Assembly: GCF_021404545.1 (NCBI RefSeq)
Contig: NZ_JAAWWD010000037.1
Coordinates: 1-64,000 of the forward strand
Reading direction: 5' to 3'
DNA: 64,000 nucleotides
Source of the DNA: Aestuariivita sp.
GTDB taxonomy: Bacteria; Pseudomonadota; Alphaproteobacteria; Rhodobacterales; Rhodobacteraceae
The notes below the pieces were generated by a model, which searched no databases, was not told the DNA's origin, and saw nothing but the letters and a program-made list of their open reading frames with translations. Shown here piece after piece: positions 31,570 to 36,314 of the stretch (position 1 is its first letter; every line of letters starts with the position of its first letter). The translations under genes were made by a program, and so were the position numbers.

Positions 31570-32430
31570 ATGACCCAGCCTGCGATTGCCGTTCTGCCCT
31601 ATGGCCTCTCTCTGGGGCGCGCCGCGCGCGAACTGCCCCTGGATCGGCTTAACTGGCCTTTTGGCCGTCCGGACAGGCTGAGCGGCGGGTCGCTGGGCGA
31701 TCTTGGCCCGGACGACCACCTCATTGTCTATCCCAAGACCAAGCTGCATGTGCTGCCGTCCTTTGGGACGCGCGCGCGGATCTCACTGGTGATGGGAGAG
31801 CCTTCGGTGATCCATGCCAAGCACATAACCTTACTGCGGCTGACGCATCGGCGCTTTTTTAGGGTGCTGAGTTTCAACGAGGATTTGCTGGCGGCGATTC
31901 CGAACGGGCTGTTTTTTCCCTACGGCACGACCTGGGTGCCGGAATGGCGCGGGTTGGACAGGACCAAACACCGCCACATGTCGCTGATCGCATCGGCCAA
32001 ACGGGACACCGAAGGGCATCGGCTGCGCCATGCGATGGTTTCTCGGGTGCAGCAGGCTGGGCTGGACGTGGATGTGATGGGGCGAGGCTATACCCCGTTT
32101 GACGCCAAGTCCGAGGGATTGGCGCCTTACCGGTTTTCCGTCGTCATCGAAAACGTTCGAGAGCGAAATTATTTCTCGGAAAAGCTGATCGACGCTGTGT
32201 TGTGCGATACGGTACCGATCTATTGGGGATGTCCGAACATCGATGCGTTCGCCCAGACAGACGGGATGGTTCTGTGCCGGAGCGAAGACGAGCTCTGGCA
32301 GGCGATCCGGTCGGCGACGGCGGAGGAATACGCCCGCAGGTTGCCGTCGTTGAAAGCGGCGCAACCGTCTTTGGCAGCATTTTGTGATCTTGAACATCGC
32401 GCTGCCGCGGCGATCCGCGACGCGCTTTGA
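31570..32430 (+). CDS. Glycosyltransferase family 10 (fucosyltransferase-like)
   Basis: YRFSVVIENVRERNYFSEKLIDAVLCDTVPIYWGCPNID, GT10 acceptor/donor motif. Confidence 0.85.
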   Translation: MTQPAIAVLPYGLSLGRAARELPLDRLNWPFGRPDRLSGGSLGDLGPDDHLIVYPKTKLHVLPSFGTRARISLVMGEPSVIHAKHITLLRLTHRRFFRVLSFNEDLLAAIPNGLFFPYGTTWVPEWRGLDRTKHRHMSLIASAKRDTEGHRLRHAMVSRVQQAGLDVDVMGRGYTPFDAKSEGLAPYRFSVVIENVRERNYFSEKLIDAVLCDTVPIYWGCPNIDAFAQTDGMVLCRSEDELWQAIRSATAEEYARRLPSLKAAQPSLAAFCDLEHRAAAAIRDAL

Positions 32431-32435
32431 GGTGA

Positions 32436-32555
32436 CATTTTCTGACACAGAAAATGGACAGATTTTGACGCAAAATCTGGGCTCCTGGGCGGGCGGGGTA
32501 TTCCTGGTTGCCAGAAACTGCGTCAGTTTCTGGTCAGAGTTTGCGTCAAACTCTG
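32436..32555. repeat. Array of four tandem perfect hairpins with 3-nt loops (core TGACRCA / TGCGTCA)
   Basis: 32436-32456 CATTTTCTG-ACA-CAGAAAATG; 32459-32479 CAGATTTTG-ACG-CAAAATCTG; 32511-32533 CCAGAAACTG-CGT-CAGTTTCTGG; 32535-32555 CAGAGTTTG-CGT-CAAACTCTG. Confidence 0.95.
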
Positions 32556-32565
32556 TGCCGGGGTG

Positions 32566-34281
32566 TCAGCCAGAAATCAAACCCATGCTCTCCAGCTTCA
32601 GCAGAACCTGATGGGCGCAATTGTCGACATCGACATTTTCCGTCTCGACCCGCAATTCGGGATCTTCGGGCACATCATAGGGATCCGAGATCCCGGTGAA
32701 CTCCTTGATCTTGCCTTCGCGCGCCAACTTATAGAGGCCCTTTCGGTCGCGCCGCTCACATTCTTCGATGGATGTGGACACATGCACTTCCACGAAGGCT
32801 CCGAAGGTTTCGATATCTTCTCGCACGGCGCGGCGGGTGGTTGCATAGGGCGCAATCGGCGCACAGATCGCGATGCCGCCATTCTTGGTAATCTCTGAGG
32901 CGACATAGCCGATCCGGCGGATGTTGAGATCGCGGTGTTCTTTCGAAAAGCCCAGCTCGGAGCTGAGGTTTTTCCGAACGATATCGCCGTCCAGCAGCGT
33001 GACAGGGCGCCCACCCATTTCCATCAGCTTAACCATCAGCGCGTTCGCGATAGTCGATTTTCCCGATCCCGAAAACCCGGTAAAGAAGACGGTAAAACCT
33101 TGTTGGTTGCGCGGTGGCCGGGTGCGGCGCAGTTCGGCCACCACCTCCGGAAAGGAGAACCATTCGGGGATTTCCAGCCCTTCTTGCAACCGGCGGCGCA
33201 GTTCGGTGCCCGAGATGTTGAGGATGGTCACATCGTCTTTATCTGTGATCTCGTCCATCGGTTCGTACTGCGCGCGTTCCTGGACCCAGACCATGTGTTT
33301 GAAATCGACCATCTCGATGCCGATCTCGTCCTGGTATTTGCGGAACAGATCCTGCGCGTCGTAAGGTCCGTAAAAATCCTCTCCGGCCGAGTTCTTGCCC
33401 GGGCCTGCGTGATCGCGCCCGACGATGAAATGCGTGCACCCGTGGTTCTTGCGGATCAACCCGTGCCACACCGCCTCGCGCGGGCCGGCCATGCGCATCG
33501 CAAGGTTCAGCAGGCTCATCGTTGTGGTGGCGGCAGGGTATTTGTCCAGGACCGCCTCATAGCAGCGCACCCGGGTGAAATGATCCACATCGCCGGGTTT
33601 GGTCAGACCGACAACCGGATGGATCAGCAGGTTCGCCTGGGCTTCACGCGCGGCGCGAAAGGTCAGTTCCTGATGCGCGCGGTGCAGCGGGTTGCGGGTC
33701 TGGAAGGCCACGATCCGGCGCCAGCCCAGCTTGCGGAAATAGGCGCGCAGCTCGTTGGGCGTGTCACGGCGTCCACGAAAATCGTAATGGACAGGTTGCT
33801 GGATCCCGGTCACAGGTCCACCCAGATAGATCTTTCCCGCCTGGTTGTGCAGATAATTCACAGCCGGATGCGCGTCGTCATCGGCGCCAAACACGTTCTG
33901 GGCTTCGCGTGCCTTGTTGGGCACCCACCTGTCTGTGACCGTCATGGTCGCCAGTATCACGCCTTCCTGATCGCGCAGCGCGATATCCTCGCCCAGTTTC
34001 AGGCTATCGGCAAATTCCTCGCTGACATCGAGTGTGATCGGCATCGGCCAGAGCGATCCATCGGCCAGCCGCATGGTCTCGATCACGCCGTCATAATCCG
34101 CTTCACCCAGAAAACCCTTGAGCGGATAAAATCCGCCGTTCATCAAGAGCTCCAGATCGCAGATCTGTCGCGGGCTCAGATCGTGGCTCTTGAGATCGCC
34201 TGCTTCAACCTTCAGCTTTTGGGCGGACTCGTAAGAGACATAGAGCTCGGGGATCGGGGTGAGATTGCTCAACATCGTCAT
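32566..34281 (-). CDS. Bifunctional sulfate adenylyltransferase/adenylylsulfate kinase
   Basis: 571 aa; FQTRNPLHRAHQELTFRAA and FIVGRDHAGPGKN (Sat), GFSGSGKSTIANAL (APS kinase P-loop). Confidence 0.95.
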   Translation of the reverse strand: MTMLSNLTPIPELYVSYESAQKLKVEAGDLKSHDLSPRQICDLELLMNGGFYPLKGFLGEADYDGVIETMRLADGSLWPMPITLDVSEEFADSLKLGEDIALRDQEGVILATMTVTDRWVPNKAREAQNVFGADDDAHPAVNYLHNQAGKIYLGGPVTGIQQPVHYDFRGRRDTPNELRAYFRKLGWRRIVAFQTRNPLHRAHQELTFRAAREAQANLLIHPVVGLTKPGDVDHFTRVRCYEAVLDKYPAATTTMSLLNLAMRMAGPREAVWHGLIRKNHGCTHFIVGRDHAGPGKNSAGEDFYGPYDAQDLFRKYQDEIGIEMVDFKHMVWVQERAQYEPMDEITDKDDVTILNISGTELRRRLQEGLEIPEWFSFPEVVAELRRTRPPRNQQGFTVFFTGFSGSGKSTIANALMVKLMEMGGRPVTLLDGDIVRKNLSSELGFSKEHRDLNIRRIGYVASEITKNGGIAICAPIAPYATTRRAVREDIETFGAFVEVHVSTSIEECERRDRKGLYKLAREGKIKEFTGISDPYDVPEDPELRVETENVDVDNCAHQVLLKLESMGLISG

Positions 34282-34486: not shown

Positions 34487-36151
34487 TCAGGGGGCGGGCA
34501 GCGCGTCCAGCTCAGCCAAATCGACAACCGGCAAGGCGGCAACCGGCGCGCTGACGCCACGCAGCTCCAGTGTCACAAGCGGAAGGTCTGAAGGGTCAAG
34601 ACCGGCGGCGGCAAGCAAGGCCTCGGTGATCAAAAGGGGCACTGAAAGCTCCTTTGTCTTCGCCTCAAGCCGACTGGCGGTGTTGACCGCGTCTCCGATG
34701 ATCGTGCGGGGGGCGTGCCCGGCGCCGATCTCGCCCAGAACGATCTCGCCAAGATGCAGGCCGATGCCGACACGGACTGGATCTGATCCCTCGTCTTCCA
34801 GCGTTTCGTTGAATGCCAAAAGCGCCGAGAGGATGCCCTTGACCGCCTTTAGACCGGCCCGGGCCGAGCTCGCTTCATCGGCGGTCTCAAACACGGCGAG
34901 CAGACCGTCCCCCAGATATTTATCCACTGTGCCCCCCGCGCCGGTGATCGGCGGGACGATTGCATCAAAGAAGCGGTTAAGCAGAAACACCACGTCGTAA
35001 GGCAATTGTCCCGTGGTCCGGGCGGTAAAGCCGCGCATATCGAGAAACAGAATGGCCAGGCGCCGTTCCTCCCCCTGGCTGGCATGGGCGCGTTTGCGCC
35101 GCCCGTCGGGCTGAAACACCCGAAAAACCGTCAGCGGGCCCGCGGGCCGTATCTGACAGGCGAGCCGTGTGCCGACGCGCGCGCCCACGGCCGCAAGGCT
35201 GCGGGCCTCTGCCGGTCCCGGCGGGTGGAGATGATCGGCCCCACTTTCAATGACCACGCGGCAAGTGGTGCAGCGCCCCTTGCCGCCACACAAAGAGGTA
35301 TGAGGGATGCCATTGGCCTGCGACATCTCAAGCAGGGTCAACCCTTTGGGGGCCGCGATACCGGGCCCATCAACGTAAGAGATGCGCACAGACTGGCGCC
35401 GCCGCATCAGCCATCGCAGCGCATAGGCGGCCATGCTCAGCCCCAAAAGCAGCCAAAAGAGCTGTAGACCGTAATCCTTCCAGGCCACCATCGCGTCAAA
35501 GGCGGGGGCATCGGGCCAGTTATAGAGGGCCAGCAGACCCTGCACCCGATCTGGATCTGCGAAGGCTACTGTGATGCGCCGACCCTCGGTGACAAACCCC
35601 ACCATCGCAAAGGCGGGCACCAGCACCGCGAGCGCGATCAGCCAGGGCTGGGCGGCTCGCCACCAGGCCTTGGCCCTGAGCCAGATATGCAGTCCGATGC
35701 AGCCATGGATCCATACGAGCAAAAGAAGGGCGGTCTGCGTCCAGGCCGAACTGCTGCCCCAGATCAGCCCGATCAGATAGCCGTAATCGTCATTGACCCC
35801 GAAGATCTCATGCGCGCCGCGGGTAAAGATAATGTGGGTGATCAAAAACAGTGGGATTGTGAGCCCAAAGCCAAGCTGTATCGCCTCGCGCAGGGGCATC
35901 CGCAAGGTGCCACGTTGCGCCAGCCCGACCAGCGCCATCGCAGCATGTATGATCAGCGCGCTGTAAAGGATCACCGTGCCGGCCCCTGACCGTGTCACCA
36001 CCTGCCGGGCCTCCTGCATCGCCTCCATCGCGGCGGGCGAGGCAAGGCCCATCCCGATATTGAGGAAATGAAAAAGCGCATAGCCAAAAAGCACAAGGCC
36101 CGAGACGATGCGCAGCCGGGTGGCAAGGCTTCCCCGCCAGAGCGGGCTCAT
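34487..36151 (-). CDS. Membrane-bound class III adenylate cyclase with N-terminal cytochrome b-like TM module and [2Fe-2S] ferredoxin domain
   Basis: Multi-TM N-terminus with several His in helices; CGGKGRCTTC…C ferredoxin motif; LAILFLDMRGFTARTTGQLP…VDKYLGDGLLAVFE…GDAVNTASRLEAKTKEL cyclase. Confidence 0.87.
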   Translation of the reverse strand: MSPLWRGSLATRLRIVSGLVLFGYALFHFLNIGMGLASPAAMEAMQEARQVVTRSGAGTVILYSALIIHAAMALVGLAQRGTLRMPLREAIQLGFGLTIPLFLITHIIFTRGAHEIFGVNDDYGYLIGLIWGSSSAWTQTALLLLVWIHGCIGLHIWLRAKAWWRAAQPWLIALAVLVPAFAMVGFVTEGRRITVAFADPDRVQGLLALYNWPDAPAFDAMVAWKDYGLQLFWLLLGLSMAAYALRWLMRRRQSVRISYVDGPGIAAPKGLTLLEMSQANGIPHTSLCGGKGRCTTCRVVIESGADHLHPPGPAEARSLAAVGARVGTRLACQIRPAGPLTVFRVFQPDGRRKRAHASQGEERRLAILFLDMRGFTARTTGQLPYDVVFLLNRFFDAIVPPITGAGGTVDKYLGDGLLAVFETADEASSARAGLKAVKGILSALLAFNETLEDEGSDPVRVGIGLHLGEIVLGEIGAGHAPRTIIGDAVNTASRLEAKTKELSVPLLITEALLAAAGLDPSDLPLVTLELRGVSAPVAALPVVDLAELDALPAP

Positions 36152-36314
36152 CTGTCGTGGCTCGGGTCGAAGAGGCGCATGGCGCAACTGTGTGCTGCGC
36201 CTCGGGCGGGGTCAAGCACCACGCTTGCACCACCCCTCGGTCGCCCGGGCCGGGCCAGAGGGGTCGCGACCCGATGGGCAAAGTCGATCCGCCAGACGCG
36301 GTCGGCGACCCAGA

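Follow-up and report, generated by a model that had tools for sequence, protein, structure and literature searches.

The window (the whole analysed stretch of 64,000 nucleotides, from Aestuariivita sp.) includes two convergent genes, one for a GT10-domain glycosyltransferase (31570..32430, + strand; an ORF with PF00852, E 8.9e-8) and sat-cysC (32566..34281, - strand), which encodes a fused ATP sulfurylase/APS kinase (PF01747, PF01583 and PF14306). The 135-bp gap between them (32431-32565) contains four perfect hairpins, two with an ACR loop on each strand, and re-examination of the sequence bore out the gap, stems, loops and coordinates given by an earlier sequence-only reading. Upstream of the sat-cysC neighbourhood (34487-36187, - strand), a single protein combines a 2Fe-2S ferredoxin domain and, after it, an adenylate/guanylate cyclase domain.

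Each of the two genes has a pair of hairpins, hereafter a doublet, at its 3' end. On the GT10 side (+ strand), hairpin 1, CATTTTCTG-ACA-CAGAAAATG (32436..32456), begins 5 nt past the stop codon and is followed, 23 nt away from loop to loop, by hairpin 2, CAGATTTTG-ACG-CAAAATCTG (32459..32479); the doublet model matches this pair at 32436-32479 (+ strand, E 7.2e-14). On the cysC side (- strand), the first hairpin, 10 nt past the stop codon, is CAGAGTTTG-ACG-CAAACTCTG (CAGAGTTTG-CGT on the + strand; 32535..32555) and the second is CCAGAAACTG-ACG-CAGTTTCTGG (CCAGAAACTG-CGT on the + strand; 32511..32533), with a model match at 32512-32555 (- strand, E 1.3e-13). The centre that separates both doublets (32480..32510) keeps neither its sequence nor its length between orthologous arrays. 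Read in the sense of the genes, all four hairpins have the form stem-G-ACR-C-stem; GT10 has one ACA and one ACG loop, and both loops of cysC are ACG. The string TTTGACGCAAA occurs twice in the window (0.02 occurrences expected). No T-tract follows the hairpins.

The gap folds far better than expected by chance, with z = -5.3 for RNA and z = -8.9 for DNA, and none of 200 shuffles was equally good. When the whole gap is folded as a single strand, the structure of minimum energy pairs unit 2 with unit 4 because the ACG and CGT loops are complementary; four separate hairpins are therefore the local (co-transcriptional) reading. The whole array was rejected as one long selected hairpin, as its centre varies and there is no general likeness between its outer and its inner partners. 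In the array 32436-32555, a gene-end element occurs twice, once for GT10 (+) and once for sat-cysC (-). Its description as a head-to-head pair of doublets is right as to layout, which arises because a doublet takes its orientation from the gene whose end it adjoins; the basic unit is one doublet per gene end and not the four-hairpin array.

A family of oriented doublets in Rhodobacterales

Covariance models were built for the single hairpin (R1) and for the doublet (R2). At E <= 0.01, R2 matches 85 doublets in Aestuariivita sp., 48 in A. boseongensis BS-B2, 88 in genome G130 of another genus, 33 in an Aestuariivita MAG (G174), 33 in G329 and 15 in G402; with 150 candidates scored per genome these counts may be too low, and a shared doublet can count on both strands. 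The exact string TTTTGACGCAAAA was found 11 times in the 4.8-Mb genome (0 times for the reversed control), and a 454-kb sample of this genome contains 11 arrays, in every one of which the + units stand left of the - units. The array is thus neither unique nor a product of chance, and the genome-wide recurrence that the sequence-only reading proposed to look for is found. A family-wide sample of 397 genomes from 396 genera was examined under stricter filtering, with 16 candidates scored for each genome; 44 genomes, representing 43 genera, had at least one R2 match. Most genera of the family thus lack the element or carry it below the detection limit, which weighs against the reading as a 3'-end signal. 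Carriers also include Tateyamaria, Tabrizicola, Rhodobacter kunshanensis, R. ruber and Aliishimia ponticola. Outside Rhodobacterales, a group of bacteria from aquatic habitats, the matches from a scan of the collection are lone hairpins without a partner. Doublets of similar spacing but with self-complementary GCGC loops were observed at loci L068, L267 (genome G075) and L268 (genome G022), which suggests that a common architecture carries loop types particular to individual genera.

A doublet consists of two hairpins of at least 9 bp each. Regardless of stem length, their loops are mostly 23 nt apart in Aestuariivita sp.; in G130 and G174 the usual distance is 24 nt. The loops are mostly ACG or ACA (25 of the 29 sense-strand first hairpins of Aestuariivita sp.), the second hairpins of shared or single doublets being less constrained. 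In four genomes, hairpin 1 mostly starts 1-11 nt past the stop codon. The TGA of its core is the stop codon of the gene itself in only 10 of 86 cases, so that a designed stop codon is not a general explanation of this core. A T-tract follows only one of 84 doublets, which upholds the claim that the array is not an ordinary intrinsic terminator; positions 1-5 after hairpin 2 in these 84 doublets, from several loci, are biased to G, G and then C at position 5 (61%, 46% and 62%). The T-rich 5' arm of hairpin 2 could provide hairpin 1 with a T-tract, but in some doublets only, as the arms do not always come in one order. In none of 84 doublets did the arms match to within one mismatch (null mean 11.5, P < 1/5000). 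This is expected if each hairpin has to fold independently of the other one, or if recombination removes tandem palindromes that are alike.

Convergent genes have either one doublet each, face to face, or one shared doublet, from either end of which the first loop met by the gene is ACR. In Aestuariivita sp., doublets lie at 14 of 78 convergent but at 4 of 158 codirectional gene ends (Fisher P = 7e-5), an approximately eight-fold preference that agrees with the enrichment the earlier reading had proposed to check; counts of this kind are approximate because genes were called by a simple codon-usage caller, and a convergent junction contributes two ends that depend on each other. Single doublets are found at single gene ends (loci L050, L051 and L053, and cysC of A. 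boseongensis). A few full four-hairpin arrays (L006, 1474-1592, and L030, 4354-4471) have only one called gene end beside them or none close by, which counts against a 3'-end element; small missed genes or a bidirectional role could account for them.

Inheritance of the doublets and change of their stems

In A. boseongensis, a doublet (GCCGGAATGTG-ACA and GCCGGAAACTG-ACG) lies right past the stop codon of cysC. The cysC doublet of Aestuariivita sp. (CAGAGTTTG-ACG and CAGAAACTG-ACG) differs from it by changes that are matched on both sides of the stems, and the compensatory changes first proposed from the array alone are thus seen as matched substitutions at orthologous junctions. The GT10-side neighbour is syntenic in A. 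boseongensis and its own doublet is missing, so the cysC half of the array is what the congener has at this junction. The refuting condition named in the sequence-only reading, an array unique in its genome and absent from the junction in all relatives, therefore does not hold. At seven junctions common to both species (six compared pairwise and one in a three-way comparison), the type and spacing of the hairpins are kept, the stems are altered and the centre is not conserved. Several doublet junctions are also common to the Aestuariivita MAG, and single ones to Tateyamaria and Aliishimia; such sharing across species and genera speaks against recent mobility. From these comparisons, the doublets appear to be inherited vertically, with matched changes in their stems.

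Covariation within the stems exceeds that of shuffles (421 double-changed cells versus 120; score 0.787 versus 0.218), and both sides have changed at 16 of 18 pairs in a set of 80 doublets. As the sequences of this set were selected for good pairing, the orthologous comparison and a partner test, in which the second hairpin was located only by its distance and its closing G-C pair, provide better evidence. In this test, 7 or 8 of the 8 outer pairs are intact in 101 of 142 candidates; among candidates with at least 5 pairs, 732 of the 756 inspected pairs are Watson-Crick, G-U pairs (4/756) being as rare as A-C mismatches (5/756). G-U pairs are also rarer in doublets (10/872) than in the canonical terminators that these genomes contain (6/152; P = 0.02). 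This is not what selection acting solely on one RNA strand predicts and it counts against a reading that involves the transcript only: either both strands matter or palindromes are repaired by template switching (PMC8794818).

A putative 3'-end element and its alternatives

The doublet seems to stand in for a terminator, as three observations suggest. Among 19 relatives, cysC is followed in 10 by a terminator made of a G+C-rich hairpin and a T-tract, and in none by a doublet. At another shared junction (L186 of the Aestuariivita MAG, near 1500), a 17-bp hairpin with an ACG loop lies between AAAA and TTTTTT and is apparently a hybrid of an ACR hairpin and a bidirectional intrinsic terminator. 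Lastly, canonical terminators are found at 2 of 78 convergent ends in Aestuariivita sp. versus 11 of 58 (P = 0.002) in G004, a genome in which the model finds no doublet.

On balance, we consider it probable, if by no great degree, that the doublet is a lineage-specific, inherited element that lacks a U-tract and acts at the 3' end of transcripts. A two-hairpin element that would work together with Rho, which is present in all 14 genomes tested, and with exonuclease trimming would be the most economical account. Its mode of action might be as follows. Hairpin 1 would lie within reach of the ribosome at the stop codon, so that the farther hairpin 2 would be the one free to fold while translation ends. 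Transcripts would halt at the doublet or past it, through Rho or through weak intrinsic termination without a U-tract, and would then be trimmed back to the doublet, which would seal them against 3'-5' exonucleases. Such trimming would also spare converging genes antisense tails on each other. The pair of hairpins may be recognized by a factor, as suggested by the invariant and oriented loop and by the fixed spacing. A more specific proposal, which we regard as tentative, is a two-hairpin code of Rhodobacterales, in which an RNA- or ssDNA-binding factor would read paired ACR loops 23-24 nt apart, set 3' ends without a U-tract and replace intrinsic terminators in some lineages. ProQ/FinO was rejected as the reader of the hairpins, PF04352 being found in none of 14 genomes.

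A role at the level of DNA or repair of palindromes by template switching would fit the rarity of G-U pairs equally well. A DNA-level element, rather unlikely in our estimate, would form cruciforms or single-stranded hairpins, or offer sites to a protein such as gyrase or a nucleoid protein, at places where supercoils accumulate between converging genes, as proposed for BIMEs. The near absence of G-U pairs, a loop-to-loop distance that is independent of arm length, the preference for convergent ends and the DNA fold (z = -8.9) all agree with this; however, the single doublets at single ends, the orientation of the loops with the genes and the placement next to stop codons fit a transcript signal better, as do the canonical terminators found at the same place in relatives. 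The palindromes might also be neutral or nearly so, made and repaired by replication template switching that copies one arm onto the other, with a weak function or none. Template switching has been proposed to create and maintain hairpins (PMC8794818), and nearly all pairs are Watson-Crick, with few intermediates. As a full explanation this appears improbable, since it does not account for the constant oriented loops, the fixed spacing, the unlike arms, the preference for gene ends or the retention at orthologous junctions; template switching may nevertheless supply the mutations that alter the stems.

The clustered hairpins might instead constitute a true U-tract-independent intrinsic terminator, acting with neither Rho nor trimming. 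The terminators located at the same site in relatives favour this explanation, which we hold to be improbable: a T-tract follows only one of 84 doublets, and hairpin 1 sits where E. coli ribosomes repress termination, a terminator placed a few bp past a gene being repressed in this species (PMC4824070), so that a single hairpin so close to the stop codon would be handicapped. The kinship with REP/BIME sequences put forward in the sequence-only reading would imply a REP/REPIN-like mobile repeat spread in trans by a transposase, in keeping with the many extragenic copies per genome and the head-to-head layout. This is very improbable. The stems are not conserved, and the element occupies junctions that are orthologous across genera. 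The search for a RAYT-type protein proposed along with this kinship led to the rejection of RAYT mobilization, as no Y1_Tnp protein was found in A. boseongensis, G130 and the Aestuariivita MAG, all three rich in elements. The two Y1 transposases of Aestuariivita sp. (L032, 1501-1857, and L033, 1501-1857) look IS200-type and are not accompanied by ACR doublets. Next to each of these two transposase genes is a long hairpin that contains GGAAAATGAGCC.

A recognizable terminator is lacking at many bacterial genes. The doublet family, which is present in dozens of genera, provides a concrete candidate signal, with an invariant loop, a fixed spacing, an orientation that follows the gene and compensatory changes in the stems. 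The genomes with and without doublets give a matched comparison, and knowledge of the family would improve the prediction of operons and terminators in Rhodobacterales. Doublets also represent a natural set with which selection on RNA pairing can be separated from palindrome repair by template switching.

Comparison with known systems

A known RNA family was rejected, as Rfam gave no match at the gathering score, nor at E up to 5 for the gap, which is consistent with the core being unfamiliar, as had been claimed. Six core strings of 13-17 nt were found in no paper of the collection searched, and nothing matching was found in the literature on Rhodobacterales terminators or repeats; with most subscription journals outside the coverage, both negatives are weak evidence. 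A DNA uptake sequence located in terminators, i.e. a constant word of ~9-12 nt, was rejected, as doublets share only a core of ~7 nt (TGACRCA) and differ in their arms.

Doublets resemble REP, BIME and REPIN sequences, including the CGTC-tagged REPs of Alphaproteobacteria (PMC3733652), in being short extragenic palindromes present in many copies and in head-to-head pairs. However, the stem is conserved in these repeats, whereas the loop is conserved and the stem variable in doublets. Furthermore, doublets appear vertically inherited at orthologous sites and are unaccompanied by a RAYT-type gene in three carriers. The base of their stems carries neither a GTAG nor a CGTC tag, CGTC occurring solely across the loop on the antisense strand. 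The CGTC REPs are themselves said to have no dedicated transposase (PMC3733652). Clustered-hairpin terminators are described in PMC8355165, where, in the part of that source consulted, no fixed spacing or loop is defined, whereas both define the doublet family. Rho-independent terminators share with doublets a stable hairpin just past the stop codon and, in relatives, the orthologous position at cysC. They differ from the doublet, which has two hairpins of fixed spacing, A+T-rich stems and a constant ACR loop, lacks a T-tract and lies closer to the stop codon. In Rho-terminated transcripts, hairpins that block exonucleases mark the mature 3' end without a U-tract, and the doublet would resemble them as a hairpin mark of the 3' end that does without a U-tract; to our knowledge, they include no sequence-marked two-hairpin family. 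The constancy of loop and spacing, kept while the stems change in step on both sides, points to the doublet as an undescribed kind of gene-end signal in Rhodobacterales.
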